In this document: positions 26,051-60,685 of the stretch, piece after piece
How the letters are laid out: each line of letters starts with the position of its first letter
How positions within the stretch are numbered: position 1 is the first letter of the stretch
Source of the DNA: Lineus longissimus
Lineage: Eukaryota > Nemertea > Pilidiophora > Heteronemertea > Lineidae
Reading direction: 5' to 3'
Assembly: GCF_910592395.1 (NCBI RefSeq)
Contig: NC_088323.1
Location: 5,270,001-5,334,000 of the forward strand
Length of the DNA stretch: 64,000 nucleotides
The notes under the pieces: generated by a model
The model's database searches: none
What the model saw: the letters and a program-made list of their open reading frames with translations, nothing else
What the model was told of the DNA's origin: nothing
Program-made: the position numbers and the translations under genes

Positions 26051-26060
26051 CTATTTATAG
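26051..26060. promoter_or_regulatory. perfect MEF2 site (CTATTTATAG)
   Basis: Exact match to the palindromic MEF2 consensus CTA(A/T)4TAG, and the leftmost of nineteen such sites found between here and 60.7 kb. Confidence 0.6.
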
Positions 26061-26654
26061 CTCACAAGGTCATTTGCATAAGATATTGATGACGTTTTAG
26101 TCACGTGACAGTCGGACATCGACACTTATTTCTACGCATTTGAGCTTATTTCAAAGTCAATTATCTTTGACCCTGCATTGTTTTTAGCATGAATGATACC
26201 ATAGAGTCAGAGAGAGAAATATTCAGAACAATTATGTAGTATTTCCAACACTCGGACATGTGCCAGATTGAATCTAACTGCCCTAGTTAGAAAGCCTGAA
26301 TCCATTACGAAACCGCATGTTTGTCCGACATTGCCTGTAATTCAGCGATGGGGAAATAGAGGGCAGCAGCTGCAGTGACGTCATCTTCGCGGAATGCTAT
26401 TCAATCAATGTGACCTTGGCTGATTGCACTCAGGATTACTATTTTGTTCTCCGATTGCACTCGGGTTGACAACAGTTTTCTTGAGTCTCACCAGGTGATG
26501 TTGTTGCAGCTTACTGCCAAGGTAAACTTACTGTGATACTGTTACGTCGGGGCTTGAGAACTTCATTGCGATATTCTGCTGGTCAGAAGAGTAGTACACA
26601 TGTTGTGTGGAGTGTGACATTGCCATCTTTGGAAGATTTTGATTTCAGTCTCCT

Positions 26655-26997
26655 TTAAAGGGAACTGAAACCGCCCAGCCAGTTCGTATGACCTCGTTTT
26701 CATTTCCCGCGTATCGGGTGATCAGAACGAGGCATGAATGAAACATGGCGCCTAGCTGTCAATCATTGAGTGACGTCACTACTATGGAATTTACTACGAA
26801 AATTCATGAATGAAAGATCGCATGACTCACGTGATTCTCACATGATTCTCAATAATAACAAATTGAACTGCGCATGCTCGGGCACTGGGGGCGATGCTAC
26901 AAATCTGAACTCGAACAGGAAGTTGGAAGTTTGACTTTCTCGGGCGGTGAAAGTCGAAAAGTTGAATAAATCACTCGGCGGTTCCAGTTCCCTTTAA
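26655..26997. mobile_element. TTAA-flanked MITE
   Basis: Terminal inverted repeats of about 21 bp, TTAAAGGGAACTGAAACCGC at the left and its near-perfect reverse complement ending CAGTTCCCTTTAA at the right, enclose about 345 bp with no ORF. TTAA at both ends is the target duplication of piggyBac-type transposons, so this is probably a non-autonomous piggyBac-like element. Confidence 0.75.
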
Positions 26998-27827
26998 GTG
27001 GTCAATTTGATAACCGTAAGGAACCTCAGCACTCTGTAGAATTTTTAATTTTCAAAATGTTATAAGGTACTGTAAACAGTGAAATTCTCTCTGGTGATTG
27101 TTAGCAAAGATGGATTGTAATGGTAATAAAGTACTCAATATTTCAATGAAGTTTTTCGAACCCTGTCAGACTTCTAGCATTTAGGTCTATGTACAATATG
27201 ACACCATAACTTTTCAACTATGTATGTATGTATGTAGGTTGTAATGTTATAAATATCATTCAGTTTTTCCAGTCAAAATGTTTGTTTTGCGATTATTTTT
27301 TTTTCATCTTACAGGTCGCAATTTCTTGCGAAATCTTAAAAACTAATGTACCTGTGACAATTTGGTAGTATAAATTTACGTATAGATTCAGTTTCGTTCA
27401 AAACTTCCTCCTTATTTGGAAGAAAATCATTTCTGTGGTGGAGGTTGGCAGCATAGCTGAGGTAGGCGGATATTACTTCTTAGGAACCATTTAGAATTAC
27501 TCATCTGTCATTCAATTGTCATTGTACGATTCATAGTCAGCATAATTTATTAGACATCTTAATTTTTAGCGCGTCCAAAGTATTCTTAGCATCAGTTTGC
27601 ACTTAACGTTCAAGATTTTTAGCAAATATTCAAGAAGACACAAGAAATTGATGTTCATTTTATGAATGTGATCATTTTATCCTGATGTGAGAAAGAAACA
27701 CTGTGCACTTCATGAGTCTGTGTGCACATTTGTTAAAGTTAAATGTATGTGTGAAGAACGATAAACAATGAAATTTCAAACATTTCAGCTGTATTGCATA
27801 AACTATCTACTATTTTAGCAGCAAATG

Positions 27828-27837
27828 CTATATTTAG
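27828..27837. promoter_or_regulatory. perfect MEF2 site (CTATATTTAG)
   Basis: Matches CTA(A/T)4TAG, isolated from its neighbours by about 1.8 and 3.2 kb. Confidence 0.5.
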
Positions 27838-27961
27838 GCTACCACCATGAAAAATAGCAAATTTGTCAACTTTTAGCACTGCGGAAACTTCACCGTCTAC
27901 TGTACATTTGGATGATTCACTTGTATTAAGTTAATGAAAAAATGGTGCTTACCACTTGAAT

Positions 27962-28065
27962 TTAAAGGGACAACATGGGTGTTGAATTTAGGTGGCCAGG
28001 AGGGCACTGGTTTTGCTTGAGAAACAACCAAACCAACATACCTCATGCCTAAGTTGTCCCTTTAA
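27962..28065. mobile_element. very small TTAA-flanked MITE (104 bp)
   Basis: Perfect 13-bp inverted ends TTAAAGGGACAAC and GTTGTCCCTTTAA flank about 78 bp. The outermost TTAA on each side suggests piggyBac-type mobilisation. Confidence 0.75.
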
Positions 28066-29530
28066 TCCCTGTTTTCTGTGTTTGTTTTATGTGTCATATG
28101 AAGGTGAATTTTGTGTTTGTCATCTACTGTACTGTAAAGGTTTTTCCAACACCCTGTATACCATTGAAAGCTGATGACTCCATCATAAAAATTCTACTAA
28201 CTTAGTTATTGGTCGTTCTGTGTGTATGTCAGTGGTGTTCGAATCTGAGAAGAACTATTTTGTATTCACTGTAACCTCGACCATTTTTGAGGTCAACGTC
28301 TATTTTTGAACACTTACATTTTGTATCGTATGCATGAAAATAATCATTTAGCGACCATGGGCTTTTACTGAAAGCGTCCTCTTCCGAGAAGAAAATACAT
28401 AGATTCGGCGAATAACCAGTCCCTATTTTCGAAGATTTGTTGATAAATCGTGCAGAAGATCCCGTGGTCTAAGAATCATGTGATGATTTTCCCTGTAGAT
28501 TTCAAGGCAAATTTCCATATGATTTTTAAAGGGGGCTGCAGGCAGGAGCCAAGTTGGTCAGATTTAGTGACACGAAGTAGCTGGTAGGGGTCTCTTATCT
28601 CACAGTACATTGAAACCATTCCTGCTTATGAGGAACGTATCACTGAATCAAACACAACCTGGCCCCTGTCTCCAGCTCATCACCTGGGGACTGCCACTTA
28701 GACCCCCCCCCCCCCCCCCGCTCCTGCCTACTTCTGTGTTATTCGCTTCACTGAAGAGGGGGTGGGATAAAAGATTACAACAGCCCAAGAAAAGTATGAC
28801 AAATTCCTTTTATTCAAGAAACTGCTGAAGTTTTGAAATAAATAAATGATGATTTAGTGAGAAATATGAAAAGCGTCTTAAGTGTTTTTGCTAAGGATCT
28901 GAACTCAACTTCTCCCAGTTGCGCTATATATCGATATCAGTGGTAGGCCAACAGGACGGACAATATTTCTTCATGGGTGAGATGTACCACAGTCTTCATT
29001 GATCGGGACAGGGATGATATCCTCATGGGGAGGAATAGACCAGAAGGCTTTCTTAAGTCCCGGTGTAACACCTGTGGTTGTTCTTCATATCATGATGTTT
29101 CCATGTAACAGACAGCTCGAGAAATCTTGTAGCCCTTTTCATTAGCGGGAAACACAGTTAAACTGTCAATCTATCTTCAGAGCATTCTCAAACTTAGAGG
29201 GGAAACACTCAGGAATGAAAACTCTCAAAAACGTTACAGAGGGACTAATTGTCCGGGCAAGGAGGTTCGATTTTCCCCCTTGGACTGATTCAGTCAACGA
29301 AAAGAGACAATTCCCCCGTTTCGTTCAGTTCGACCATATTCTGTTAGGTGTCAGCACTGGTCCTTTACATGTTGGAGTAAAAGAAATGTTGTCCCTTGGG
29401 AGAAAATGTCATTGAATAGGATTTTCAGACTTGAACTCCCACTTGCACTGCAGGACGATGATATAATTAAGTGGTCTTGCCCACGCCTCGCGGCCTACTG
29501 GTTGTGACCCCGATTGTGACTTTGTCCTAT

Positions 29531-29710
29531 GAAGACCGGTGTGACAGCGGATATAGTCCCCCTGGAGTCATAGTCCGGTAGCATTGTATTTGACCAATTA
29601 AGCAGCATGATCTATTGTACCTAACCCTAACCAAAACATTTAGCAATGCGGGCTATTGTTACACGGACTATCAGCCCTAGGACTACTATCCCCGCCACAC
29701 CGGTTTCAAG
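29531..29710. mobile_element. MITE-like element with about 30-bp imperfect inverted ends
   Basis: GAAGACCGGTGTGACAGCGG at the left mirrors CCCCGCCACACCGGTTTCAAG at the right, and the match continues inward through ATAGTCC / GGACTA.TAT. It is about 180 bp with no ORF. Confidence 0.6.
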
Positions 29711-31061
29711 TCTATGTTTCTACAGTAATTAAGTGGTCATTGTCCTCAGCTATACACAGGCCTGTCTTTGCAGCACAAGGAAGTTGGTGGTGCATACTTG
29801 AAGTCGCTGGCCTAAATTTAAACGGGAAGCAAAATGCCGACTGCCACATGATCTCTTTTTTGTTGCAGACGACCGACAGGCAATTATCTGAAACGCGACA
29901 TCGTCATCACCAGTTTATTGATTTCGGTTCCATTGTCAGATTCAATTCCAAGCGCCCTAAAAAAACTAAACATTGCGGCGACTGAGATGAGAGAGATGTG
30001 ATAATTGGTTGGTAATTATGATACAAACCCGTTTCGGAATAAAAAGATATATTTCCAATAATGTTTTTTGTTGCGGTGTTGAGAATATGTACTATGATTG
30101 TTGATGTCCGATAAGAAAAGAAACAGTAAGCGAACTTCTGTGTGAAGTCCATGCCTACCATTATAGAGACACTAGACTCGGACTATGCAGTCCATTTTGT
30201 CATCTTGATCGGGGACAAGACGGTCCACTGCGTCTGGAGTGTTGACACTTCGAGTTTGGGCGTTTTTTAGCGCTTTTTGTCTCTTCCAACACAAACACGT
30301 TTTACTATCTAAGGCGGGAAAAGTATGACCACGCTCTCCAACCGACCTCTCTTCAATTCACCAATGAACGAAAATAAGCTTTGATATTTTTTTATCAGCA
30401 CCCGGATCAGATAACCATTGGGAGGTCCATCTTGACCAGCAAAAATAAGGCATTTCGTCAATTCCTCTATTCATTTTCATTAATTCTTATGTATGGGCAT
30501 GCGCGTCTTCCGAACAGCTTGCTCTAAGTAGGTCACGGGTTACTGAAGGCTTTGTTCACACCAAGATCAGGACAAAGGCACAACCATGGCGAACAAACAG
30601 AAACAAAGACAAAAACGCTCATATTCTGCGGACAATAGGCCTACTGTCAAAATGAAACTTTTATTTACTAGCAAAAAACACAAAGAATGAGTACTTTTAA
30701 TTCATCTTCCATGTCTTCTTCAAAAAGGGAAAAGGGCTAGATATATATCTCATACTATGCCTCCAACGTGTCCCTATGGCAAGTTCTTGACCTGGGCCCT
30801 CCGATGTAACCCAAAGCAGTTGCTGTTTTAGCACTGCCATTGCAGATTCTGATTAGACTCTTGGGGCAGTCACCGGGGCAGTCATGGCCGGTCCACCGCG
30901 TCCGGAGTGTAGGCCTAATTTTGATACGCATTTCATGCATTCATTCGCTTCTGGCGAGAGCGTCATAACTGCTTCTGTCGTCTGCACTGCGAAAGGGACG
31001 CGGGAGGACACACAACACTGATACTGATGGATATTTTCGGCCCTACCCCAGGGGCCGAAGT

Positions 31062-31145
31062 CTATTTATAGCACGGCCAAGGTCGCTTTTAGCTTAGCAG
31101 TGTTTATTATCCATTGAGTGCGTTGTGGTCGTCGGCTATTTTTAG
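31062..31145. promoter_or_regulatory. pair of perfect MEF2 sites
   Basis: CTATTTATAG (31062-31071) and CTATTTTTAG (31136-31145), 74 bp apart. A candidate splice donor (TTACGG|GTAAGA) follows at about 31266, so a non-coding first exon of the HDAC gene could start here. That is inference. Confidence 0.5.
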
Positions 31146-32510
31146 AATGAGAATATCACGGCGTGATTGGATAATTTGGATCACATGACCAATATGTGTG
31201 TTGTCCTCAATTAGCTGGCTTAAGAAGGATTCTATGTTGAAAATTGTGATATTTCTCGCTTAACTTACGGGTAAGATTAAATCAATGTGTATGGAACGTT
31301 AGAATATTTCATTTGATACAAAGTAAATTCGACGGTAGCGAGAAGAGTGCTCCGATTTTGTGGTATTTAATCAAAGTGTTCGACGATTTTCACCGATCGC
31401 CAGCCATTTTAGCACTAGCAGGTGCCCATTAAGTATGATACACATTGTATAAACGTGTAAGTTTTGCATGCATGGAGTGACTAGCTGTTGGTGTTGACTT
31501 TTTAGGCCATGAAGTTGTCAATTTTAGGGCCTGTATATTGTAGATTTAGTTCCTTATATGTTCAAAGGGCTTGTGCTACTGCCGGGTTTAGAGTGGTGTT
31601 GGCCCTAAAATAGGTCAAGACTCCATATCATGTCGTCAGTGGTTTCTCGTTGCTTTGCTGCTGTGCAACGTTCAGGCCAGCTGATCTCTCCCGATATGTC
31701 CACAGCTAGCTAGAGGGGGCTTGTCGATTGAGACAGTGGGGCCTACTTAAAGAGGTACGCCGTTCGTTCACATGTCGTATAGGCCTAGTAAGTGTTTTAG
31801 TTCCTATTTCTAACGCCAGGCAACGCCAAGAGTCAGTCATAATACATTGGCCTATGCTAGCCTACATGCTACATTTGGTTCCTACAGAACTGTCATTTGA
31901 CAGGTCGTTAGAAGAGGATTTATCTCTCCGTATCCATTACAATTGACTATGGAAATCTCTCGACACATTGGGGTTGTGCATTCATTGCTGAGACATACAT
32001 AACTAGCTGCCCACTTTAAATGTGTAGAGTTTGTGTATCTGCAGTTTGGTTGTGCCAGCCTAAGCCATCAGTTTGGTAACAGCTAAAGCAGTTTTCACAT
32101 GTTACAAGGTTGGTCAGAAGACAGTCTTTACCTTTTGGCGTCGGCGCTCTTCAACAGGTAACCAGGTTCTTCAGACCCAAAGCAGTCCTTACATTTTAGC
32201 ATAACTGCTTATCCACTGATGACAATGTTGGTCAGAATCTCTTTGTACATTGTGCCGGTGACCTGTCTGGCATTTGCACTAGAAGCAGAGGGGCTTTCCA
32301 GATCCCATTCACTGGAGTCAGCCTAACATATTACTGGCTCATAAGATAAACAAGTAGGCCAAATGTATACATTTCTTATGGACCTTGTGAGATTCACTAT
32401 GTAGGTTAGTAGACCAGACGCTTCATTGGTCTCTGTGACAGAAATAATCTGGACTGGATTAATGGTATGAGTTCATTGACCCCTTGAAAATTACTGAAAG
32501 TAGTTATAAG

Positions 32511-32877
32511 TTTCATCGCTATGGTTGTACTGAATTTATGATTGATTTATACTGTAAAATACAATGCAAATACTGTCTTTCGTTTCATTGCTATGGTTGT
32601 ACTGAATTTATGATTGATTTATACTACTGTAAAATACAATGCAAATGAGCCTTTCGTTTCATCGCTATGGTTGTACCGAATTTATGATTGATTTATACTG
32701 TAAAATACAATGCAAATACTGTCTTTCATTTCATTGCTATGGTTGTACTGAATTTATGATTGATTTGTACTGTAAAATACAATGCAAATACTGTCTTTCG
32801 TTTCATCGCTATGGTTGTACTGAATTTATGATTGATTTATTATACTGTAAAATAGAATGTAAATACTGTCTTTCGCT
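32511..32877 (+). repeat. tandem array, 71-76-bp unit, five copies
   Basis: Units start TTTCAT(T/C)GCTATGGTTGTAC and end AATACTGTCTTTCG. Starts are near 32511, 32582, 32658, 32729 and 32801. Copies are over 90% alike by eye. Because several units are 72 bp, they create a repetitive open frame (from 32639) that is not a gene. Confidence 0.9.
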
Positions 32878-33124
32878 TCCACACCAACATTACTCACTTG
32901 ATTCGTATGCTGGGTACAACTGGCCCACAGTGATCCGTACCAGTGTTACCCCCAATCATCAAAGCCCTGTGTCAGAATTCCTAGTCTCGGAAATGGCTAT
33001 ATATTGTTTAGCTAAATGCTTGATTTTCCTTCAATGCTACTGCTATTGGAAAAAGTTGTTTGGCCTGATGTACGGTAATTACAGGTTGGTAGTTTGATTA
33101 TGCCATAGCAACGGAGAAGATAGG

Positions 33125-34919
33125 CTATAAATAGCAACGGATAGCTAAGGCTATTGATCTAGTAGTGATGAACCTATACTGTCCGATGGGTATGAGATTG
33201 CTTCCAGCATGTTGACAGTGGTGAGATGGCCACTGGGACTGTATGAAGTTGGTTTGGTTTTATTATATGAAGATGAAGAAATCAACATGCCTCGCAGTCC
33301 TTGCTGCTAACATGAGTCTTTTTTTTGCAGCACAAGTGAAATGTACAGTGTTGAGATGTGACAGGTTTTATGTCGAAGTTTATTTTTCAAAATCTCTGTA
33401 TGATTGTGTCGTTTCAGATATTACATTAGATCAACTGTAACAACTTGGTAGTTGTTAGGATATGAACATTGTTGGATTATAGACGCCGGCTTACTGACCA
33501 AAGATAAGGATTACTACTAACTAGTGCTAGCGCCACCTGGTGCCAGGCATGAAAAAGGGTATAATTGAAGGTACATATAAAATCCATAATACAGAACCTC
33601 TCTTTTAAAAGGACACCCTCGGGACTGACAAATGCTGTCCTTTATAGAGAGGTGTCCTGATTAGAGAGGTGGAATTGAGTGGAAACAACCAATTTGTGAC
33701 CAAAACAGGTGTCCTTAATAGAGAGGTTGTCCTTGATAGAGAGGAATCCGCCAAGTGACGTTCCACTGTAGTGAGCTTCTACAAGCACCCGGTTTGGTCA
33801 GCGACTAACATACTATTATTCGGACACACACACAGACAGACAAAATCACTCACTACTAAATATAGTCGCTTGCCTAACCGGGCGTTTGCGAAAACTCACT
33901 AAAAATGGATAAACAAATACTCTGACATGTAGTACATGTATATATTCGCATCAGAAGATACACGTATTTATTAAAATATCTTTAACAAAATATAGAGCTC
34001 AGCGTTGGATTGGATACAGACTTTGTATTCATCCACCCGGGATAAAGATGATGTATTACATGTACCGCTCTATTACCATTCCTCTTCTGATTGTTGTTCC
34101 ATAAACAAGATAACGTCTATATATAGCGATAAGTTAAATGCCATCCAATTGGGTGAGGCAAAAATAGACGAGGATCTGTTGTGATAGGGCAGAGGTTAGC
34201 TGTGGAGTGAGTGTCCTGATCAAGTCCCAGGCAAGACTATTTAGCCGCTCTTGATTAGATTTCAGGGGACGTGCCTTCTTTACGGATATCCTCCATTCTC
34301 TCGGCGCCAGTGACCCAGTGTGTTTTGGGAGACATCTATAAAGCGACTTCATTTCCTGGAATTCGTAATATATGCCCCAGAAATGTCAGTTCGTGGTGGT
34401 GGTTTTCGGTTTTCGTGAATATAACCTCAAAAATATTTTGAAGCAAATAAATAGTGGTGAATTTTTTTGCAGGTTTCCATTTTTGGGAGTAAGAATGATG
34501 CTCCGTAGCACCCTCACTGGTGACCGGGCATAGCGTAGAACTTCCTGATAAAGTGCAGCACCCTGTCCTTGCAGCCTCCTCCTCCCAGGGACAACTTGGT
34601 CTATTCTTAGACATCCGCCATAATGAGAAGCTTCTCAGTGGCTGCGGCAGCGTCCAGGGTATGATCGTTCGCCGATTTCATGAGCTGGTGACCGTCCTAA
34701 TATAACCTTCGCTCAGCTCCGCTATCTTCTAATCACTTGCTGTGAATCAAGCTGCACAATTTCCACAGCTCCGCATTGCGCTCCGTACAACGACGGTCTC
34801 GGGGCTACAGAGGAAAATCAATGAACTAAAAATAGCTCTGCGCCCTGTTTTATTGAAATTTCGTTAGGTTACTCTTCGTTGGATATATAGGAATTGGTTT
34901 GTCGGAGTTCTATAAATAG
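33125..34919. promoter_or_regulatory. cluster of five perfect MEF2 sites
   Basis: Sites at 33125-33134 (CTATAAATAG), 33856-33865 (CTAAATATAG), 34117-34126 (CTATATATAG), 34826-34835 (CTAAAAATAG) and 34910-34919 (CTATAAATAG). Their A/T cores differ and their flanks are unrelated, so they did not spread on a repeat. The last pair is 84 bp apart and sits just upstream of two candidate first-exon donors (35078 and 35245). CTATAAATAG can also serve as a TATA box. Confidence 0.6.
33590..33770 (+). mobile_element. 'CCTCTCTATTAAGGACAC' family element, well preserved
   Basis: About 180 bp bounded by ATACAGAACCTCTCTTTT at the left and GACGTTCCACTGTA at the right, which are inverted relatives of TACAGTGGAACCTCTCT. 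Inside are GGACACCCTCGGGACTGACA, TAGAGAGGTGTCCTGATTAG and GGTGTCCTTAATAGAGAGG. No ORF; probably a non-autonomous DNA transposon. Confidence 0.75.
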
Positions 34920-34939
34920 ATCTGTGCGCTGTGCGAACG

Positions 34940-35078
34940 GTAGCTTTGGTCGTGATCAATAACGGTATGGACTAGCGTAACATTGTCTTATTAGAGTGCA
35001 CGTAGCAGACGTATTTCCCTCTGTGCTGGTGATTCTCTGTGTCCTTACGTTAGTTCTTCCGCACTATTTTATAACAAG
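34940..35078 (+). other. candidate non-coding first exon of the HDAC gene
   Basis: It lies about 25-30 bp downstream of CTATAAATAG (34910), which could act as TATA box, MEF2 site or both, and ends in a good donor (ATAACAAG|GTATGT). A second donor (GAGGAAG|GTATGT) at 35245 offers an alternative. Either would join the acceptor at 36461, whose exon carries the start codon. The transcription start is inferred. Confidence 0.35.
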
Positions 35079-36461
35079 GTATGTATCGTGTGTAGGAGGA
35101 AGATTGATTTTTCATGGCGTCAACATTGATTGATTTATATACTTTAAAGCGTGACACGCGATATTGTTGTTTGTGTTCTTGTCTGAGCTGTCATTGATGA
35201 GGTGTCCTTACAATGTGGCTTCATTCTGGACTATTCTCGAGGAAGGTATGTTTTGTTTTTATTGATTTTCAATGTAATATCATTATGTGATTTTTAGCAT
35301 CAATACCAGTACTAGCGTACAAAATTCGCTCATTTGCAGGGCGTCAGGTTTGTGAAGATACCTGTGGGGGAGGTGATCAGAATTCCATTGCTTTTTGCAT
35401 CATGGGTTGCATACATAACAATGATGCATAAATGCCAGCACTACAAGCTACCATCGATTGCCTCGCCCTTCTCAATCTTATTTGTACACAAGGGATTATA
35501 ACGTCTGTCATCCGAGTTTTCAATATCTGGTATGCTAGGGCTGTTTCTGTGTCACATGCCGTGGTACTAGGGCTTCCACTCTATCTTCAGGGATCTTTGT
35601 CATTGTATTTGCAATCGAGGCTATCTATACTGTTGTGAGTGACCGTCATTCGGGGGGGGGGGGGCTTGTGTGAGGGTGACATATCTAGAATGTGATTTGT
35701 GTTTGTCGGTCGCACAAACAAGTCAAAGGAGGGTCTCATTATGGGATGGGGCATCAGCTCACACCATTTCACATCGCCATTTTAAAAAAGTACATTTTGC
35801 AGAAAGGGAGTGGTCAATGAAAGTGATACACGCAATCAAATATAGATTAGAGAACATGCATTCGATGCAACTAGCCAAACTACAGAACAAAACAAAGCCA
35901 CAATGTAAAGATAGCAAGAAAAACTTCAAAAGCCAATTGGCATCACTCAGAACTAGCTTTATTAGCATTTACACATGACAAATGAACAATATTTTACATT
36001 TATTTATACCCAGATCAATGTAGCCTAGGGCAGATTCGCGATTGAAATGATCAATGCATCACTGAGAATTGATACGCGGAACTTTCATCGATGTTCGATT
36101 TGTATGTTTGATGCGATGTAAATGAGTAGGTGCTTTGCGATCACATGACCGGCTTTTTGACAGTTGTAACAAATTTTAAAATTAGATGCTCTATAATGCG
36201 TCTTCTTGATATTTCAATCAATAGATGATGGTCAGCAGAGCTTTCTATCTGAAGTAAATTGGTTTGTCATTGACTTTCATGCTCCTCTCTTTTGTGATGG
36301 TGTGAAATCATGGGGGTGTACATGTAGTTGGCGACTTTTTGGTTTGCGTCAGTTGGCCTATGGTGGATGGCGAAACCATGGAAATTGGCAGTTGCACATT
36401 AGCCTGCATCAATTGATGTTGATTTGGTTCTAAAATCAGTGTTCCCTTTCTCTCATTACAG

Positions 36462-36533
36462 AACTGATTTGATGGGCCTGGTTGTCACATATCACAATGG
36501 ACTATTCCAACAGTCACACCAAAAAACAACAAG
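36462..36533 (+). CDS. HDAC4: class IIa HDAC alternative first coding exon (starts 36497)
   Basis: The acceptor TTCTCTCATTACAG| and donor CAACAAG|GTAAGT bound a 72-base exon. An ATG at 36497 in strong context (CACAATGG) codes MDYSNSHTKKQQ and leaves phase 1, exactly what the shared exon at 63155 needs. The joined product starts MDYSNSHTKKQQ-DPLGPRES. An out-of-frame ATG at 36472 opens an overlapping uORF of twenty codons and two bases within the exon. It would end early in exon 63155. The call rests on splice sites and phase, since the peptide itself has no recognisable motif. The intron to 63155 would be about 26.6 kb. Confidence 0.55.
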
Positions 36534-36840
36534 GTAAGTCATCATGTACTTGTCATTCTTGCTGCTACAAAATGGTCCTATCCCAATTGAGACGCTCTCA
36601 AGACGAAAATTGTCTTGCTTTTACTGCTACGACCCTCGATAGCCTCGGCATTCCAGGTCACTTGCTTTAGGCATAACCAAACACAACGCCACTCTTCAAA
36701 TTTGTCGCCAAATCTCTAAAAATACCCAAAGATGTCCTGCAATGGATGGATAGAAGCCCAAAATGTGCGCCCAAGTTCTAAAAATAACTGCCGTTCTTGT
36801 CATCACTTGTCAAGGGTGCGTTCAAGTGGATAGGACTTGT

Positions 36841-36850
36841 CTAAAAATAG
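36841..36850. promoter_or_regulatory. perfect MEF2 site (CTAAAAATAG)
   Basis: Exact consensus about 310 bp inside the intron following the candidate first coding exon at 36462-36533. A relaxed version (CTAAAAATAA) lies about 65 bp upstream. Confidence 0.5.
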
Positions 36851-38285
36851 CATCAATTCTCCACGCTATCCATAAAGAGATTATTTGTTGATCTAACGCA
36901 GCCAATGGCGGCGTAGAAATGGTGATTTATCAAATCGTAGAGTGAAGGTCGGGTTATTTTTACTGCGGTAGATTGGTCCCTTGATGGCTGGAGAGGGGAG
37001 GAATGGGTACGGATGTAACCAGTTGCAGGCGCAGATTTAAGGGGGGGCCCACCAGAGGCACGCCCCCCTTTCATGAAAAATCTTTGAAAAAAACACCCCT
37101 GCAACCCTGCAAACACCCCTTCCAAACCCACTGAAAATACCCCTGTAATTTTTGAGCAAGCACTCCTACTCTGCAATTAGAGATCACTAGTTGACAAAGT
37201 ACTCAGTATTTCTCCTCTAGAGCAGATGTTGTCCACATCTCAGTTGATATCAGGTCGGAATGGAAAAAAACTAAATCTAGCCTAAATAATCAGCATATTT
37301 TTATGAAATTTCAAATTCGGATCCCCGCACAATATTATAATTGTGAAATTGCCATTGCAGTTCTGAGTCCTCTTGACATATGATGCCTAATTTGGCCAAT
37401 CATCAGGAGACATAAGACCCCAGGAGACGTAGGAACCTACCCCTGGAAATATCACAATCTCCGCCAAGACTATAAGAGATAAACATGCCAATCTAAGCTG
37501 AAGGCAACACGCTAAGCGCATTAGAGCTATTCTGGTTATGATGTGCTATTTTCGTCATTGCAAATTGGCAATTTTGCGACTCGGCTGACTATCTTTAGCA
37601 TGGGTGTTTTTTGTCCTCATGACACCCATATTGTAGACAATGTGCAAAATAGACTTAATGGTTGAACTGAAGACGATTATCTAAAAATATATATCATTTC
37701 CCTCGTCATAGAGCAGGGGACTGCAAACACCCTTTCCAACCCATAGGCTCGTAAAAATTGATGAAATTGGTTGGAGATGAACTTTTCTATCACTTTGGCT
37801 CTATATGTTACATGTAGGTAAGCTTTGGGATCACATGACCTGAAGGGGTTAAGTAAGATACTACAGTAACAGTATTACCAGTCCATTGGTATGTTTACTC
37901 TATTATACGATATTCTCATCCTGGTATGCAGGATGACCTTGACCTACATAGGCAGCCCAGAACCCGTGGCTGCGAAGTGATTTTAAATAGAGTGCCTTTC
38001 AGTGATTGTAAACCAGGGCAAAAGTGATATTACGAAGCATTTTAAATGTTCCAGAATTCTCATTGCTGTTAGCTTGTATCAAGATAAGAAATGAATCAAC
38101 CCTTTATGGGCCACATCATAACTATCCTCGTCCCCTATTCAGGACAGATTGTTTGGCTCAGTGACCCAATTCTATAATCAGAAGTACATGTAAGATGACT
38201 GCCATTTGCTGTACGTCATCAGTTTATAAGGTTGCATTTAGAACCCAGCAAGATGATATGTTGACACAGGCAACTTAATAGTTGC

Positions 38286-38714
38286 GGTTCCACTACAGGA
38301 AAGTGCGGACTACATCCGAATTAGTTGTGATTCCATTACAGCTAGTCCGGACTAAACAAGTCCGGCTCTCACTAAGAGCGGTCTTATTAAGTGCGGATAG
38401 GACAAGCCGAACTTAGAATAGACCCGGATCTAAAGCAGAAATTACCTGTAATGGAACCGCATTAGTCTGGATTAAGATCAAGTTACTAAGTACGGCTACA
38501 GGTGGCGTGTCAATGTGAACGTATTGCGCATGAGCGGAAGTGTTGGTTCTGTCAAAACAACACCTAACGCGCATAGAGTGGCGCCGCCTGTAGCCGTATC
38601 TGTTAACTTACCAATCCTGTAGTCGAACTGCACCACATTCGTTAGTCCGGACTAAGCTAAGTTCGGACCTGATGCGGATGCGATAGAAAGGGATCTAAAC
38701 CCTGTAGTGGAACC
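38286..38714. mobile_element. MITE with perfect 14-bp inverted ends (429 bp)
   Basis: GGTTCCACTACAGG at 38286-38299 is matched by CCTGTAGTGGAACC at 38701-38714. The interior is rich in short palindromes (AGTCCGGACT twice, CTGTAGCC/GGCTACAG) and has no ORF. No clear target-site duplication was seen. Confidence 0.75.
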
Positions 38715-39728
38715 AAGACTATATAGTTGGGGACTTGGTTGCCCGGTTGATGACTTGAGCCTTGAACCTTTTGAACACTGCATCTCAAACCTAAAATAAT
38801 GCCATAACAGTCCACCCTAACTTGAACAAACTTACAATGCATACTGACCTGTTATCCTCGATATATGTACACAATATATCACTTGCTAATAGTGCCACAA
38901 CATCAGCTCAAACTTGTTACATACTAGCTGCTAAGCAGTGGTGATGATGGTTTCCGTTTTTCTGAGAAAGACTAAAAATATCTTCGGTTTTTCACAGGTA
39001 AAAAGTACTATGATGAGGAGTAAACTGGGCCGGCTTTTGGATTGGTTCCTTTAAAAATATGCTGCTTGTTTAACGGGTTACAAATGTAAAAGCCTTTTTA
39101 AGATGCCTCAAAGCTCTACGAGATAGCATCTCACCAACGTATTGCGTACCAGGACTTGTTATTTTTGACGAATGCTGCTTTGCTCAAGAATGTCTGAATG
39201 AAAGCCTTGTGCCAGTCTGTCACATTTGAAAGGCGAAGAGCTGTTTTTCACTCCTTTTTGGAGAAGTAAATCACTCCCCATTCTACAATCTACTGAACAA
39301 ACCTAAGAATGTGAAAGCGCTCTACTAGAGGACATTTCACGGGTGTGATGCAGTGGGTATATAAAACCTTGCCCCGACTTTCTGGTTTTGAAACATTTAG
39401 TTTCAACGCCGCATCGACTGAGAGAACCACAGGTATTCAAAAGCAAGATTAAATTTATATACCAAGTCAACAACCCAACTAGCGCCACCCAAAGAAATAT
39501 GTTCGGCCTGCGTTGAGACTAAGTGTGTTTACAAGTTCTCTTGAAGTAAAACCCATACACCTGTCCCGTGAAGGGTTATTTATGGAGAGGAATTTCTAAA
39601 TATACGCAGGGTGAAAATACCAAGGGAACTAGTCAAGTCAGTGACCGAATGCACCTTTGAAGCAAAACACTTCTTGGAACGATCTTGAATATTTGGAATA
39701 TTCATGATAAATTCAAATTGCTTGCAAC

Positions 39729-40289
39729 TTGGCTATTTGTGATAACTTGCTATTTGGCCTGCAACACCACCTCTGATTTTACAACAGTTGGGGTAAATGA
39801 AAGATACAGTCGACTCCCTTAACTGACACCTCTATCTCCATTAAGGACACTTGTTTTGGTCCCAAGTTGGTTGTTTCCATACACTTTCTCCTCTCTAATC
39901 AGGACATCTCACTATTAAGGACAACACTTGTTAGTCCCGAGGGTGTCCTTAATAGAAAGGTTCTACTGTACATTCAAAATTGTACTTGTAATTGTACAAT
40001 TTTGAATGTACAGTAGAACCTTTCTATTAAGGACAATTTGGCTATTTGTGATAACTTGCTATTTGGCCTGCAACACCACCTCTGATTTTACAACAGTTGG
40101 GGTAAATGAAAGATACAGTCCCTTAACTGACACCTTTATCTCCATTAAGGACACTTGTTTTGGTCCCAAGTTGGTTGTTTCCATACAATTTCTCCTCTCT
40201 AATCAGGACATCTCACTATTAAGGACAACACTTGTTAGTCCCGAGGGTGTCCTTAATAGAAAGGTTCTACTGTACATTCAAAATTGTAA
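39729..40289 (+). repeat. 309-bp-offset direct duplication joined by a palindrome
   Basis: About 255 bp from TTGGCTATTTGTGATAACTT (39729) recur at 40038 with one 5-base deletion and few changes. Each copy contains one 'CCTCTCTATTAAGGACAC' family element (39805-39970 and 40114-40274). Between them lies a perfect 42-bp inverted repeat (39944-39985 with 39994-40035) around an 8-base loop. Confidence 0.9.
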
Positions 40290-40480
40290 TCTCTTAAAAC
40301 ATTAGAACTAAGTATTTAAAGTACAAATTTTATTTGCTTGAGACAATACGAAACAGCTTTTTCGTCGAGAGTGAACCATTATGTTTTTCAGAACATGTGT
40401 ATATTTTTCAGTTGCATCTCTTTTTATGAATGGGCGCCGCGAAAACCGAGCTGGTTAATTGAGGTACCGCGTTCTTTGTT

Positions 40481-40490
40481 CTAAAAATAG
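40481..40490. promoter_or_regulatory. perfect MEF2 site (CTAAAAATAG)
   Basis: Exact consensus, isolated, about 200 bp after the duplicated repeat block. Confidence 0.5.
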
Positions 40491-40829: not shown

Positions 40830-41110
40830 TCCAAACTTAGTATGCATACCTCTTGGGAAGAGGGTCAGGTGGCCTCTGGCTGACATCAAATTTCGGTTTG
40901 ACCTGATTTTTAAATTAGCCACCAGGGGGCCAAAACAGAAAACACAGAGAGTACTGTGAGACCTTATACTAATTGTATCATCTCCAAATGTTTATTACAT
41001 TTACATGTATGTTCTTCAACTTTGGATTCATGACATAATACCCAGGCTCTTACTTGACCTACTTTTCAAGGTCACAAAGGTCAAGCCACTTAAAAATTTC
41101 TGTGTAATTA
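40830..41110 (+). repeat. fragment of the CTCF/DR3-bearing repeat family
   Basis: Shares CCACCAGGGGGCCAAAA (40919 onward) and TTGACCTACTTTTCAAGGTCA then CAAAGGTCA (41069-41083) with the tandem units at 57.4-58.3 kb, in the same order and at about the same spacing. Confidence 0.7.
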
Positions 41111-44100: not shown

Positions 44101-44124
44101 TTAAACCAAAAGCAAAGGAAAGTA

Positions 44125-45052: not shown

Positions 45053-45059
45053 CAACAAT

Positions 45060-46750: not shown

Positions 46751-46757
46751 AGTAAGA

Positions 46758-46939
46758 TACAGTGTTACCTCCCCTAGTGGACACCTCTCTATCAATTACA
46801 CCCTCTCTATTAAGGACATCACTTTTGGTATCAAACTGGTCATTTCCCTTCAATTTGACCTCTCTAATCAGGACACCTCTCTATTAAGGACAGCACTTGT
46901 CAGTCCTGAGGTTGTCCGTGATAGAGAGGTTCTGCTGTA
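46758..46939 (+). mobile_element. 'CCTCTCTATTAAGGACAC' family element
   Basis: About 180 bp from TACAGTGTTACCTCCCC to GAGAGGTTCTGCTGTA, with internal CCTCTCTATTAAGGACAT, TTCAATTTGACCTCTCTAA and CTATTAAGGACAGCACTTG. The ends are inverted copies of each other. Confidence 0.75.
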
Positions 46940-48787
46940 ATTATGTAATAAAACCAAGTCGGATAAGTCACAACGAAAAGATGAACAGAATTCTGACAAT
47001 AGTTGGGTGGCCTTGAAGAAACAATGATTATTCGCAAATGGGCATCTTTATATCGGAAAACAATTCAAATTCTCCCAGAAGTCTGTAAAGGTGTCCATGC
47101 ACAGGAGGCTATTAATATTTTCTTTGCTCAAACTGCGGCAAACGAGTGATCATAGACCATATAATTGCATGTAGGGGGCTGGTAATTTGAAAAACACACC
47201 GGGTTGCATTTGTGAAAGCTTGAGTAAAGAGCGGGGGTAAAACCATTAGAAAAAATATTTAGGCGTTGTTTGAATTGAGTGACCCGTATTGGTCTTCTCC
47301 AAACTTTTACTTTTCGTTAGCCGCCTCAGAAACCAACAGGAATTTGCCTTAAAATCTCTTCTGAAATGAAACTGTACAATCGGGGCAATGTTTGAGAGAC
47401 ACCTCCTTTTAATTTTGTTTATCTAAAGGGGGAATTACAAAGGTTCGGCAGTTTTGATGATTCAAAATGTTTTTGATCTTGCGGCAATAAAACTGTCAAC
47501 ATTGCAAATTATTTCCATTTTAGGTTATTTTCAACTTTCATCTTGGGAGAATTACGTGATTTTTTTTCTGCTCATTAGTTTATTTTTGGCCACGTATTAC
47601 ATGATTTTCCCCCCTCAACTTAGAGTTCTTTCGCACCAATGAGGGTATAGACCACACATAACTCTTCCCGCCAAAATTCCCTTTTTGGTCCAGAGCATCA
47701 CAAAAATGTCCAAACAGCTAGTTCACACAAAGAAAAATCATCGGCTAAATTTAACTTTTTTGTAAAGAAAACAAGATAGTCGAACACAAAAGGACTTTGT
47801 AACTTTGGCTGTTTTTAGAGTCGACAATTCCTTTCCAAGGGTTGCTTAGCTTTTGTTCTCCTGGTGGTTGTTGCTCTAAGTGGAGGGTTCTTCCCTAACA
47901 TTGCATAACTGTGTCACCAAAAATTTAAGGAACTTTTCGGACTGTCGTCTTCTGAGAATTCCTCTTGATGCGATCTTCTCCCAACTTCTGATATTTCTTG
48001 GTGTGAGACAGTTTGTGACTTCAGATCCTTCCTATTTGGTAAGAATTAGTTGATTATCCGGAAAATCTGTTTATAAATTTGTGCTGAATTTCAGGAATCC
48101 ATCATTCAACCTGTGTCTTCTTCTGATTCATCTTTTTATATGAATTCCATTCTGAAACCTGTTTTGATGGCCTGTCTCAAGAAATGAATCATGTGCCAGA
48201 TTGAAATCTGTTCTTCTTTTTATCACAACTAATAAGTGCTCCTTAACCAAGTGATCCTTGCACAATGATCTACAATTATGATCGCATGCAACAAAAATTG
48301 CCCATTCGCAGTCGCATCATCACCGGTGTCTTAGCTGTGAATAAAACCTTGTACCTCCGAGGTGACAGGCCATTGCGCCACTCTACGAGTCTCCAATGGG
48401 AAAATCTCAAAGTCAGTTACAAATTGTAAATGAAAGAATGTGAATCATAAATAGTTCCTCCTTCTTAAACCATCGTCGCCATGAGCAGGCAACAGATGCT
48501 TTGGGCGTCAAGTTGTTGCATAATTTTCAAATTCATCCAATTTTGCACAAATTTAGTTTTATTGAGCTGATAATGTGCGGGTTTCACCGAATATAAACAC
48601 TCCGTATGCAAGGCTGCTTGAGGCATTGTCGGCAGATTTAGAATCTGTGATGCCGTTTCATCATCAGGAGATGATGGGGATCAGTGGCATAGTGCTCGGC
48701 TATGTGACTCCTTTTGTCGTGCTTCATATTGTACAACTGTCTCAATAACCATAGGCAGCAAACACGATATTTACGCTTTAGTCCACA

Positions 48788-50523: not shown

Positions 50524-51215
50524 AAGGTGGGAGGTGGGAGACCCTCGGAGAGGTTGTTGCCTCAACACAGAGAGGTGGCAGACCTCCAACAGGTTGTTGG
50601 CCTTGATTCAGTGAGGTTGCTGACCCTCAGAGAGGTTGTTGCCTCAACTCAGAGAGGTGGCAGACCTCCAACAGGTTGTTGGCCTTGATTCAGTGAGGTT
50701 GCTGACCCTCAGAGAGGTTGTTGCCTCAACTCAGAGAGGTGGCAGACCTCCAACAGGTTGTTGGCCTTGATTCAGTGAGGTTGCTGAACCTCAGAGAGGT
50801 TGTTGCCTCAACTCAGAGAGGTGGCGGACCTCCAACAGGTTGTTGGCCTTGATTCAGTGAGGTTGCTGACCCTCAGAGAGGTTGTTGCCTCAACTCAGAG
50901 AGGTGGCAGACCTCCAACAGGTTGTTGGCCTTGATTCAGTGAGGTTGCTGACCCTCAGAGAGGTTGTTGCCTCAACTCAGAGAGGTAGCGGACCTCCAAC
51001 AGGTTGTTGGCCTTGAATCAGAGAGGTGGCCGACCCTCGGACAGGTTGTTGGCCTTGAATCAGAGAGGTGGCTGACCCTCGGACAGGTTGTTGGCCTCGA
51101 CTCGGAGAGGTGGGAGACCCTCATAGAGGTTGTTGCCTCAACACAGAGAGGTAGCTGACCCTCAGACAGGTTGTTGGCCTCGACTCGGAGAGGTGGGAGA
51201 CCCTCAGAGAGGTCA
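50524..51215 (+). repeat. minisatellite, 41-bp monomer with 82-bp higher-order unit
   Basis: GACCTCCAAC recurs at 50581, 50663, 50745, 50827, 50909 and 50991, exactly 82 bp apart. Each 82-bp unit is two related 41-bp halves built on GAGAGGTTGTTGCCT and CAGGTTGTTGGCCTTGA. The right end falls back to single 41-bp monomers that differ more. An open frame across part of the array is fortuitous. Confidence 0.95.
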
Positions 51216-52995: not shown

Positions 52996-53911
52996 CTATT
53001 TTTAGAAGAAAGGCTATTTTTATCTGTGATAACCCAGTTTTGCCATGGCGTGTGCTGGCATGCCCAGTCCATCTTCAGATCCTAATCCAGCTATTCCGCC
53101 CCCCTCCCACCACCCCAAACCATTCTATTAATAGAAATTACAAGCCTTAAACATTTTCATCGTTATTGTAAAAGGGCCTATATAATAAAGTACATATGTT
53201 TTGTTCTGATTCTATTCATAGTGTCTGCTACGTCTATTTATATCCGGAATATCCGATACCTCCCGGGCCTGTTTGTTAAGAAATAATGAACTCTATTTAC
53301 AATCTAACTTCGTTCTACTATAAAAGAAAGACGCTTATTCCACGATATGTTTGCAAAGCGAATGTTCATTGATAAATACAGTTGAACCTCGTTATTAAGG
53401 CCACTCTTGGGACTGGCATATGCTGTCCTCTTCAGAGAGGTGTCCTGATTACAGAGGTCAATTTGAATAAAAAGGGCAGATTTTCTCTTGGAGGAGAACA
53501 AATTAAGTGTCTTGCTCGACAAGAGAGAAGACGTAGACCAACAGTGCTGGTTCATCCTGCTAACTGCAGTGAAACCTCCCTTTGTGATTGTTAACCTCTG
53601 TTAGAAGGACACCTTGTCGACGGCCAGGGATAATTATTTTGGTCCTAAATAGGTCCTCACTCCAAGAATTGTCTGGGTAGTTTTGAAAGCTCACGGTCAG
53701 GCGAGTGTTTAGGTGAGTGAAGGATTATGCTAGGGTAGCCTGAAGACTAGCTTTCCCTTGACTTCATTGACAAATAGAATCTGGGAAAGCGTTGCCGTTT
53801 TGCCAAGTATCCATGGTAACGCAGCATCTCTCCTGTCAGCTACGGATGTGTTTCTCCCGTAATAACAACTCCCACGTCTCACTATATTTAGCGGCTAGTG
53901 GCTATAAATAG
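52996..53911. promoter_or_regulatory. cluster of four perfect MEF2 sites
   Basis: CTATTTTTAG (52996-53005), CTATTAATAG (53125-53134), CTATATTTAG (53882-53891) and CTATAAATAG (53902-53911). The last two start 20 bp apart and could double as an upstream element plus TATA box for a transcript leading to the exon at 56436. The separation from that exon (2.5 kb) leaves this open. Confidence 0.55.
53377..53615 (+). repeat. degenerate 'CCTCTCTATTAAGGACAC' family sequence
   Basis: Reads TACAGTTGAACCTCGTTATTAA, CTTGGGACTGGCATATGCTG and GAGAGGTGTCCTGATTACAG, followed by a second partial start (CAGTGAAACCTCCCTTT at about 53566). Probably one element broken by insertion or deletion. Confidence 0.6.
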
Positions 53912-55297: not shown

Positions 55298-55479
55298 TTA
55301 GGGGACCGTAGGCAGGAGCTGGGTTCGATTAGTCATATGATTCATGCACAGTCTGGCCTGGTGATACAGATAGTTTATGTTCTATTGTAAAAAGTTCTGC
55401 CGTACTGATAGTGGCGACACCTGTCAGCGACATTGTGTACTTAATCTGGCCTACCTGACTCCTGCTAGTCTCCCTTTAA
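55298..55479. mobile_element. decayed TTAA-type MITE
   Basis: The left end TTAGGGGACCGTAGGCAGGAG mirrors the right end CTCCTGCTAGTCTCCCTTTAA. A left-end relative (TTAAAGGGGGCTGCAGGCAG) occurs at 28526. About 180 bp, no ORF. Confidence 0.6.
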
Positions 55480-56435: not shown

Positions 56436-56637
56436 ATGAAGGTGATGATGACGCAGTACGCCCAACAGGTCCAGCCCATCTTGGTGCATCCTTACCCTTT
56501 GACGCTAGGTCGGGGGGAGACCCCCACGCCTCTTCTCACCCCGACCACACCGACGACCCCAACCTCGGCTACGCGGGGGGGAGTATTCAGTTTTCACCAG
56601 GGACATATACTTAGCACGGTACAAGAATGCTCACAAG
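56436..56637 (+). CDS. HDAC4: class IIa HDAC alternative first coding exon (67 codons)
   Basis: An ATG at 56436 opens a frame of 67 codons plus one base, ending at a good donor (CACAAG|GTAGGA) in phase 1, which fits the exon at 63155. The peptide begins MKVMMTQYAQQVQPILVHPY, has a Thr/Pro-rich middle (TPTPLLTPTTPTTPTSA) and ends HILSTVQECSQ. Codon-like composition and phase support it. No domain is recognisable, as expected for isoform-specific HDAC N-termini. I saw no strong acceptor before the ATG, so this is probably a true first exon with its own promoter. Confidence 0.6.
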
Positions 56638-57244
56638 GTAGGAACGTAGTAATAGTTAGTCCCAATTTCATGACAGGTTTGCTTCAAAACTGAACTTTTT
56701 GAGAAAACGTCTTGTCGAAATCTGTATTACTCTGCCCACAATTTTCAGTTAAACCCCACAGACAATGACCAAATTCCAACCCAATTCTCTCGTCAAAATA
56801 TCAAGTGTTTATTTGTTGACAGCCTTATAAACAGGTCAAAGATCAGATAAACAACTATCGAAATCAGGTTGGAGAAGATTGAGGTTACAATACCACACTG
56901 CATATCACTGACGTCATTGTTTAAGGTAACTGCACTTAATATGACTGACGTCATTGTTGTTGGTGTTCTTTCCTGGAACAGGCCTATCCATTGATTATAC
57001 ATATTTTTGCTGTTTGGTTTATCAGCTGTTTAGGTTATATGGTCTGGTTTGGTCCAGATTCATAGAACAGATTGAATCATATAGTGGATAGTTAATTGCG
57101 GGACAGGTCCACCATACTATGACAGATCCATCTAGCAGCACTGGGTAACTATCCGAAAACATTTCTGACTTTCTGCTCCGTGTGTGGTGATTTTAATGGT
57201 TTTGACTTTTTTCCTCTGGCGAAAAACGTCCAGATTTCACGTTT

Positions 57245-57297
57245 TTAGCTCACCTCTTAGCAGAGGTGAGCTTATCCCATACCGTGGCGTCCGTCGT

Positions 57298-57341
<44 letters not shown>

Positions 57342-58383
57342 CGTCGTCGTCCGTCGTCCGTTAGCAGGGCACGTTTCGTAACTGTTAGAGCTATTGAGTT
57401 GAAACTTGGGACACATGTACCCTTATGTAATGACACCTTGGAGACCATGTTTCGGTCCGATTCGTTTCATGGTTTGGCCACCAGGGGGCCAAACGTTAAA
57501 AGTGAAAATATGCAATATCTCCCTTAATAGTAGTCGGGAAATTTTGAAAAAAATATGGTAGGTACTTCTAGCAAAGGTGCATCATATATCCTCCGGGTTT
57601 TTGATTTGACCTCCTTTTCAAGGTCACAGAGGTCAAATGGTGTAAATTGGCCGTTGGGATGTAACGATGGCACGTTTCTAAACTGCAATGACTATTGATA
57701 CCAAATTTGGTACACATTTACCCCTTAGTCAGGTGATCTCGGGGACCGAAGTTTGGTCCAATATGATTCACCACTTGACCACCAGGGGGCAAAATCCAAA
57801 AACCTTAAAAATGTGATTATTCCTTAACTTCTTGCCCGATTGCCACCAATTTGATAACATGGGTACATCTAACCACCATACAGTATATGTCACACAGGTT
57901 TTTAATTTGACCTTCTTGTCAAGGTCACAGAGGTCAAATGGCGTAAATTCGCCGTCAGGCGGTAACTATGGCACGTTTCTTAACTACAATGACTATTGAT
58001 CACAAATTAATTACACATGTACCCCTTGGTCAGGTGATCTCAGGTACCGAAGTTTGGTGCAATCTGATTTGCCGTTTGGCCTCCAGGGAGGGGGCCAAAT
58101 CCTAAATTCTTGAAAATGCCATTATTCCTAGTAATGACTTGCCTGATTGGCACCAATTTTATATCATAGGTACATCTAATTCTAACAACCATTCAATGTG
58201 TCACCCGGGTCTTCTTTGATTTGACCTACTTTTCAAGGTCACAGAGGTCGAATGTACTGTAAATTGGCCATTTTGGGGAAATTGTAATTGCTCGGACCTA
58301 CATCAAACCTAACACTACATGACACAATACCATGCTCTTTATCCATCTTTCCTCCACATGAGGTGAGCACAATGGCCCTGGCC
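57245..58383 (+). repeat. 1.1-kb repeat element with about 301-bp internal tandem units
   Basis: It starts with a perfect hairpin (AGCTCACCTC, 57247, with GAGGTGAGCT, 57263) and a CGT-rich tract, then three units of about 300 bp, and ends near CATGAGGTGAGCACAATGGC. Each unit carries GGCACGTTTC.TAACT, a CCACCAGGGGGC-type block (57478, 57779; degenerate at about 58080) and TCAAGGTCACAGAGGTCA (57621, 57922, 58236). No ORF is conserved, so it is probably a non-autonomous interspersed element. Confidence 0.85.
57295..57361 (+). repeat. CGT trinucleotide microsatellite
   Basis: (CGT)n interrupted by CCGTCGTC steps, about 65 bp, inside the larger repeat element. It gives a meaningless poly-Ser open frame. 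Confidence 0.9.
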
Positions 58384-58937
58384 ATTTCATTTGAGCAATC
58401 AACTTTGAATGATTGCCATTTCTTTTATAGATTCTGTATTGCCGCTCTTAATGACAGATTGAGATTAATGATCTTGTTAATTACAAGTTGTCTTCCTAAT
58501 TACGGCAGTGTGGAGATACCGAGAAATCTGTCATTTGATTCATCGCCTTTAGAAATATTTTGTGAAAAGTCATCCTGAATAAGTCTTTTCCACCTTTTAG
58601 TTGACAAATTAAAACAATAATACCATAGTTAACCTTTTTGCTGGAGTCATCAGGATTGAAACGATTTGCTATTAATGAAATCAGTAGTAGTTTTTACAAC
58701 CAGGACTGAATCACCATTAGATCTGTGAAATTACCCTTTGGGAGATTCCATGAGTGCTCATATCTGGGAGTTCCAGATAAAAATATGATATTTCCTATTT
58801 AAATCGTTGACTAAGTGTCAGCTATACTACGATTGTGAAAAATACCATCAGTCGCAAATGACTTCTGCTTAAAAAGCCATTTTCTGCGATTCTTTGAACG
58901 AATCAGCTTCCATTATCCGTTTTAAGATAAGTCGTCG

Positions 58938-60685
58938 CTAAATATAGAATGCTGTCACCGGTTATGGCAATTTTTGATCTATTTTCGAGATGCGTAGAGC
59001 TATATTTGTCGCCGATGAATAGGTCGTTAATTGATTTGAGGATGCTTGCTAGGGAGTCATCGAGGGTCGCGAAGGGATGCTGGGGACGAAGGGATGCCTT
59101 TGAGGGTCTTGAAGGGGCTGCTTGCATGGAAGTCGTAGCGCTGAGGCCATTGAAAAAGAGGTCTATGTGATCGAAGAATGGGTCCACTATACTATATCTT
59201 GGTCTAAATACCGCATACCCGGTAATCTCCCGTGCTGTACATTGCATTACACTTCTACCTGAATTCGAGCTTGTCGGGATATGTTGATAATTATGATGCG
59301 TATTTCAGTATACACACAGCAGTGACGTGCAGTCAATCGGTATTCTGTCGCAGATCTAACCCAGTGACAATCCCGATTCAGGTCACAGCGGTTCATTGGC
59401 CTATAATTCTATGAAATTCATTTTAAAATTGAACACAGCTGGTTAATTTCAGACTTGCTTATTCATCTATCTTTTTGATATATTGAAAATTTTCTTCATT
59501 GACTACGGCCTCATATCTCGAAATCCCAGGCTTTTTGATGCCATCTGGTTCATCCTTGATATGATTTATGCAGGGTCATTGTCCTTGATACCAACCTCAT
59601 CCCTAGCTGGCATTACTTCGAATATGCGTGAATGTGGCCTTGAAACTTGCTACAGTAGGGGATTTGAAAGTTGCGGTGCAGCCATCATGACCAGGTTATG
59701 ATCTTCATATCATTTTGCCTGCGGTCTAGTCCTGTCATAGATATGTTCAAAGGGCACAAGAGTATGAATAGGTCTGCTAATTCAGCCCTCTGGGAATGTC
59801 AGCGTGCAAGAGAAGTGGAGCAAGCAGCGTGGTATATCCTCTGTACCATTTCCTTCCCAGGAGTTTTTAGTGTCAAGCCATACACGCTTGACTTCTGTTT
59901 CAAATCAAGGACATCTGGAGGTCCTGCCAGGTCACCTGACGTGGCTATTTTTAGCATCAGCGAGTGGAAATAATTACGTCCTATGAATGCCCAACTGCTT
60001 GGAAACAGTCCAGTAATTAAGTTCCTGGTTGTTAGGTTATTGTTGTGATTAGTGGCGACATATCCTAGTTAGGGGCCCCGTGGGTCATGTGAGGTTGTTC
60101 TATAAATAGAACGGCTGATGACGTGGCGGCTGTCACCGTGATAAAATCCATTGTGAAATACATGGACATGAAGTGCTGAATTAGGAGGCCTTGGCTTACC
60201 CTTTAATCACCAATAAGTCCCCAATAACTCTAAGAGGGAGGATGGTCTTTCTGAAAATGCCTGCATGGGTTAAAGTCAGTCAAAGATCATAAAATTTTAT
60301 CAGGATTCCATTTTGACAACAAAGGTATTTACAGGGTACGAATTGTATCAGCTGTTGTATGGGTGTGAATCTGGGTGATAACCCAACACATGGATAACGG
60401 CATCGACGATTTTGCAACATCAGTTAGACTGATGATGATCGAGGTTGATGATGATGACGATGACGATGCTGGTGATGGCGATGATGATGATGGTGACGAT
60501 CAGGAGAAGTACATCGCCCCCTTGGAGTTCACCTCAAAGTGTGGATGCCCCTACCTCACTAATAAGAATAGTCTTATCTCCGGGACAATTGGCCATTCTC
60601 ACTCTGAGGTGAACTCTTACGGTTTATTGTAGGGCACTGTCCTAAGGGTCGTGCCACGGCCACTGCTGGTCAGTTCTAAATTTAG
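58938..60685. promoter_or_regulatory. cluster of four perfect MEF2 sites
   Basis: CTAAATATAG (58938-58947), CTATTTTTAG (59945-59954), CTATAAATAG (60110-60119) and CTAAATTTAG (60676-60685). The site at 60110 is followed by a CRE-like TGATGACGTGG about 10 bp downstream and could act as TATA box. The cluster lies 2.5-4.2 kb upstream of the shared HDAC exon. Confidence 0.55.
60431..60500 (+). repeat. GAT-rich trinucleotide tract
   Basis: Imperfect (GATGAC/GATGAT)n of about 70 bp. It produces a poly-Asp open frame that I do not consider a gene. Confidence 0.8.

Follow-up and report, generated by a model that had tools for sequence, protein, structure and literature searches.

Class IIa HDACs are co-repressors of MEF2 transcription factors, and in vertebrates MEF2 and HDAC9 (MITR) reportedly form a negative-feedback loop, which Haberland et al. 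are said to have described in 2007. Developmental enhancers, for their part, can hold homotypic clusters of transcription-factor binding sites. During our analysis of a 64,000-base stretch of the genome of the nemertean Lineus longissimus (NC_088323.1, positions 5,270,001 to 5,334,000; hereafter the window, numbered from its first base) we found 19 perfect copies of the palindromic MEF2 site CTAWWWWTAG, all lying in the interval that separates a tubulin-tyrosine-ligase-like gene from an exon of an HDAC4-like class IIa HDAC gene. Passages of PMC8287581 describe feedback loops in which Mef2 factors promote the transcription of Hdac9, their own repressor, and passages of PMC8853665 place MEF2D on the Hdac9 promoter. 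For Drosophila, passages of PMC10763444 describe an HDAC4 whose MEF2 binding region is conserved and which works through MEF2 in the mushroom body; since the phrases "feedback", "regulates HDAC4 expression" and "HDAC4 transcription" do not occur in the main text, these passages give no precedent for control of the HDAC4 gene by MEF2. Among the titles and abstract openings of the matches listed, none described an invertebrate HDAC4 gene under the control of MEF2 sites.

The Lineus locus resembles the vertebrate loop in that a class IIa HDAC gene would be under MEF2 control and its product would repress MEF2; however, at vertebrate HDAC9 it is MEF2D bound at the promoter that has been described, whereas here there are 19 perfect, putatively regulatory sites across 35 kb beside an HDAC4-like gene. 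With the homotypic clusters of developmental enhancers it shares many sites for one factor, unevenly placed and in several clusters, but those clusters form one compact module, whereas the sites here are spread over 35 kb and those with the perfect consensus are by far the most enriched. The likeness to Drosophila lies in an invertebrate HDAC4 that would be partnered with MEF2.

An exact scan of the whole window gave 19 CTAWWWWTAG sites per 64,000 bases. In 100 dinucleotide-preserving shuffles the mean was 1.22 (standard deviation 0.97, maximum 5), Markov models of order 1, 2, 3 and 4 predicted 1.07, 1.19, 1.45 and 1.62 sites, and an order-1 simulation that kept composition local, block by block over each 1 kb of positions 26,001-61,000, gave 0.76 sites, with a maximum of 4 in 200 runs. 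The excess is thus about 12-fold or more and, given that it exceeds the shuffled, Markov and block-wise expectations alike, A+T content does not account for it. A preliminary description of this DNA had listed 19 sites, 18 of them at their exact coordinates and one at 60110 that actually lies at 60100-60109; its rough expectation of about 1.5 sites was a fair one, and the dinucleotide-shuffle comparison that it proposed, run here on the window alone, set 19 sites against the mean of 1.22. The observation as a whole is confirmed and turned out stronger than had been claimed.

The specificity of the excess extended to arms, spacer, core and flanks. Under an order-2 model CTA/TAG ranked first of the 4096 pairs of three-base arms around WWWW (19 vs 1.19, P 7e-17), the second-ranked pair being TCT/ATA (14 vs 1.85, P 1e-8). 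When the spacer in CTA-W(k)-TAG was varied from k = 0 to k = 10, the counts in 26,001-61,000 were 2, 1, 3, 5, 19, 0, 0, 0, 0, 0 and 0, i.e., 19 vs 0.9 to 1.4 simulated sites at k = 4, with k = 3 slightly raised (5 vs 1.4 to 2.4). Within the core, 12 of the 19 sites were CTAWAAATAG (6.07 expected, P 0.005), and the classes CTAAAATTAG, CTAATAATAG, CTAATATTAG and CTAATTATAG, a grouping devised post hoc with the cores already seen, were represented by 0 of 19 sites where 7.5 were expected (P 7e-5). The outward flanking base was G or T at 32 of 38 positions, against a background of 0.537 at other CTAW words (P 8e-5, in a test made after the flank table had been inspected). MEF2 matrices prefer K-CTAWAAATAG-M, a preference that the cores and outward bases here follow. 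Variants that keep the central part of the site and change its terminal base, CTAWWWWTA(A/C/T), were mildly enriched in 25,526-61,000 (20 vs 6.5). We considered whether A/T-richness might have produced wrong-spacer or wrong-arm variants along with the sites as an artefact, and rejected this on the arm, spacer and variant counts. The MEF2 consensus is written CTAWWWWTAG in passages of PMC3250504, which also describe gel shifts in which schistosome MEF2 binds CTAAAAATAG and CTATATATAG, the latter being its preferred site, with binding to CTATTTTTAG mentioned as data not shown. That these are MEF2 sites, as the preliminary description had proposed, is well supported, the signal being specific in arms, spacer, core and flanks alike; binding by MEF2 is predicted.

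The sites fall into three unstranded groups, as determined by the exact scan and grouping. The distal array (26051..40490) holds 11 of them, at 26051, 27828, 31062, 31136, 33125, 33856, 34117, 34826, 34910, 36841 and 40481, and is densest at 33125-34919, with five sites. A four-site cluster at 52996..53911 comprises the sites at 52996, 53125, 53882 and 53902, the last two of which start 20 bp apart; a second four-site cluster, at 58938..60685 (58938, 59945, 60100 and 60676), is the closest to the HDAC exon. Within 26,051-60,685 the sites are grouped at 31-35 kb, 53.0-53.9 kb and 58.9-60.7 kb. The first starts approximately 0.5 kb past the inferred stop codon of the ligase-like gene and the last approximately 2.8 kb 5' of the HDAC exon. 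As had been claimed for 1-26,000, the beginning of the window is devoid of sites, the exact scan finding none in 1-26,050; this is no depletion, since only 0.35 sites are expected in 1-25,525. The uneven placement is nevertheless real, with P 5e-5 for the leading gap, P 0.001 for the largest gap anywhere and P 0.007 for uneven spacing within 26,051-60,685. The density beyond the stop codon predicts 13.7 sites in the preceding 25.5 kb, where 0 were observed, a comparison whose boundaries were chosen post hoc and of which the largest-gap test (P 0.001) is the conservative version.

The explanation that we favour, with a probability of about 0.62, is that this region controls the class IIa HDAC gene in response to MEF2, through sites distributed along it, and probably operates in an HDAC9-like feedback loop. 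The territory from approximately 26 to 61 kb would be upstream and/or first-intron regulatory DNA of the HDAC4-like gene and would carry high-affinity MEF2 sites as a homotypic array distributed over several clusters. The palindromes would be occupied by MEF2 dimers, which would drive the HDAC gene; its protein product would in turn bind MEF2 as a co-repressor and damp MEF2 output, giving negative feedback as in vertebrate HDAC9. What the analysis shows is how many sites there are, how specific they are and where they lie, together with what the exon encodes; MEF2 occupancy, the HDAC gene as target, net activation and closure of the loop we infer. The interpretation offered in the preliminary description is partly supported: the MEF2 sites do lie 5' of a class IIa HDAC exon, with the ligase-like gene on their other side, and an HDAC9-type loop acting through a MEF2-responsive region is plausible. 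A more tentative extension, which we think possible though rather doubtful, is that a loop from MEF2 to class IIa HDAC predates the vertebrate HDAC4/5/7/9 split and that in this lineage the HDAC4-like gene, with an exceptionally dense long-range array of perfect sites, belongs to an ancient auto-damping circuit in which the array acts as a distributed MEF2 sensor. If MEF2 occupies the array, the MEF2-co-repressor loop described for vertebrate HDAC9 would go back further in animal evolution, and one could test at this locus whether a factor gauges its own activity via many dispersed strong sites. The locus also lends itself to comparison among animals, by counting the perfect MEF2 sites that adjoin their class IIa HDAC genes.

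Several points weigh against a MEF2-driven HDAC loop at this locus. Every expectation for the number of sites derives from within the 64-kb window, and the site-bearing stretch and its boundary were picked after the sites were seen. The sites are dispersed over 35 kb and not packed into one enhancer, and the promoter and first exon of the HDAC gene were not located in the window. Among other palindromes compared, the top comparator GATWWWWATC also occurred more often than expected (5 vs 1.0). Only one of the 19 sites is CTATATATAG, the one preferred in schistosomes, and of two weak MEF2 variants given in passages of PMC3250504, CTTWWWWTAG was unenriched (1 vs 1.8) and CTAWWWWTAA mildly enriched (6 vs 2.4). 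The phrases "negative feedback", "MEF2 binding" and "transcription of HDAC9" are absent from an HDAC9 review (PMC7912504). According to passages of PMC8287581, loss of Mef2c turns Hdac9 on in regulatory T cells, and therefore MEF2 sites alone do not fix the sign of regulation. Finally, partner motifs within 100 bp of the sites were without clear enrichment: there were 23 E-boxes vs 15.6 expected, 14 GATA motifs vs 7.9, 4 CRE half-sites vs 1.4, 1 CAGCTG vs 0.8 and 0 CArG motifs vs 0.8. This search, which compared 14 named motifs and all 6-mers in the 100, 200 and 300 bp around the sites with the remaining stretch, found nothing convincing given the number of tests; the counts included TATCCA (9 vs 1.43, 100 bp) and ACGGAT (6 vs 0.5, 200 bp) and, at 300 bp, CCTATC (7 vs 0.78) and CCCNNGGG (5 vs 0.6). 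CArG-type (SRF) motifs of the form CCW6GG numbered 8 in 26,001-61,000 and 1 in 1-26,000, with none within 100 or 200 bp of a MEF2 site and one within 300 bp.

The DNA may also be genuine MEF2 regulatory DNA without a meaningful loop, with the HDAC gene or its neighbour being merely one of many muscle or nerve targets of MEF2. The site signature is silent on both the sign of regulation and the target gene, there being a gene on each side, and this explanation would sit well with the report, in passages of PMC8287581, of Mef2c keeping Hdac9 off in regulatory T cells. We nonetheless regard it as unlikely; a co-repressor HDAC driven by MEF2 would feed back on MEF2 unless it were kept from the nucleus.

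A further explanation is that CTAWWWWTAG is overabundant genome-wide in the non-coding DNA of this lineage, the first 25.5 kb of the window being the atypical part. Other palindromes are indeed overabundant window-wide, such as TACATGTA (14 vs 1.06) and TAGGCCTA (7 vs 0.47), both of the form TA-NNNN-TA. However, these are found on both sides of position 26,000 (TACATGTA with 4 copies in 1-26,000 and 9 in 26,001-61,000, TAGGCCTA with 3 and 4, respectively), unlike CTAWWWWTAG, whose 19 sites all lie beyond the first 26 kb (P 5e-5 for the leading gap). Because of this empty first part, the contrast with TACATGTA and TAGGCCTA, and a core and flank bias that fits MEF2, we consider lineage-wide abundance less likely still.

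Spread of the sites on a transposable element, or their origin as excision footprints, is highly improbable. Dispersed and tandem repeats do occur in the stretch, but zero sites lie inside those detected within the window, by a procedure blind to repeats that have no second copy there. Flanks of 250 bp around all 19 sites have in common no more than the overlap between neighbouring ones and two short matches of 23 and 21 bp, both between the flanks of one pair of sites and neither covering a site. With no site in a detected repeat and no common flank spanning a site, we rejected a repeat origin, and the claim of the preliminary description that the flanks are unrelated and that the sites did not spread on one repeat holds for repeats detected within the window. 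Excision footprints, suggested by the TA-NNNN-TA form of TACATGTA and TAGGCCTA, were rejected since the cores vary, whereas those of footprints would be fixed, and since only three sites have a self-complementary core (CTATATATAG, CTATTAATAG and CTAAATTTAG). Chance, helped by the picking of a single motif out of many, can be dismissed: although the motif and boundaries were chosen after reading, the P of 7e-17 stays significant once corrected for the 4096 arm pairs and the 11 spacer lengths, and the core and flank biases add further evidence to shuffle, arm and spacer tests that already contradict chance.

The genes on either side of the array, between which the favoured MEF2-responsive HDAC control region would lie, were each recognized by a Pfam match. 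The HDAC exon (approximately 63510..63733, plus strand), whose limits were set by eye at what read as splice sites (acceptor ttgcag, donor caa/gtaagt), encodes a glutamine-rich domain and matched PF12203 (HDAC4_Gln) with an E-value of 5.5e-8 and a score of 33.3 bits (cutoff 25); it also matched the HDAC4 structures 2h8n/2o94 (8.9e-6) and 7xuz. The assignment to a class IIa HDAC gene is based on this single exon matching HDAC4_Gln, and the MEF2-binding motif and deacetylase domain of the gene are expected downstream of it, past the right end of the window. Upstream lies the 3' part of the tubulin-tyrosine-ligase-like gene (21324..25525, plus strand), recognized from PF03133 and from its sequence and translation; the ligase domain is at 21324-21656 (PF03133, E-value 5.8e-21), and the last exon and stop codon (25523-25525) were inferred by eye. 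An open reading frame at 9703-11430 (575 residues) had no Pfam match and may or may not belong to the ligase-like gene. Only the HDAC exon matched Pfam among 99 open reading frames scanned in 25,500-64,000, these being 99 of 165 listed frames of at least 55 residues, with longer ones favoured and no strict cut-off, and Rfam at gathering thresholds had zero matches in the window. On these 99 frames and the Rfam result we rejected the idea that the site-bearing stretch conceals a gene or RNA.

The window contains several other repeated sequences. One dispersed family, at 33600-33770, 39725-40288, 46758-46953, 53372-53473 and 24831-24924, carries TGTCCT..AATAGAGAGGT motifs in either orientation and has perfect 42-bp inverted arms at 39944-40035; it is probably a family of non-autonomous DNA transposons. 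C runs are overabundant window-wide. A tandem array at 50540-51213 consists of 8.2 copies of an 82-bp unit with 93% matches. A second tandem repeat, at 57561-58254, has a 301-bp period and contains TTGACCTNCTTNTCAAGGTCACANAGGTC; one 40-bp piece of it is also found at 41048-41087, and it carries several AGGTCA half-sites resembling nuclear-receptor elements.

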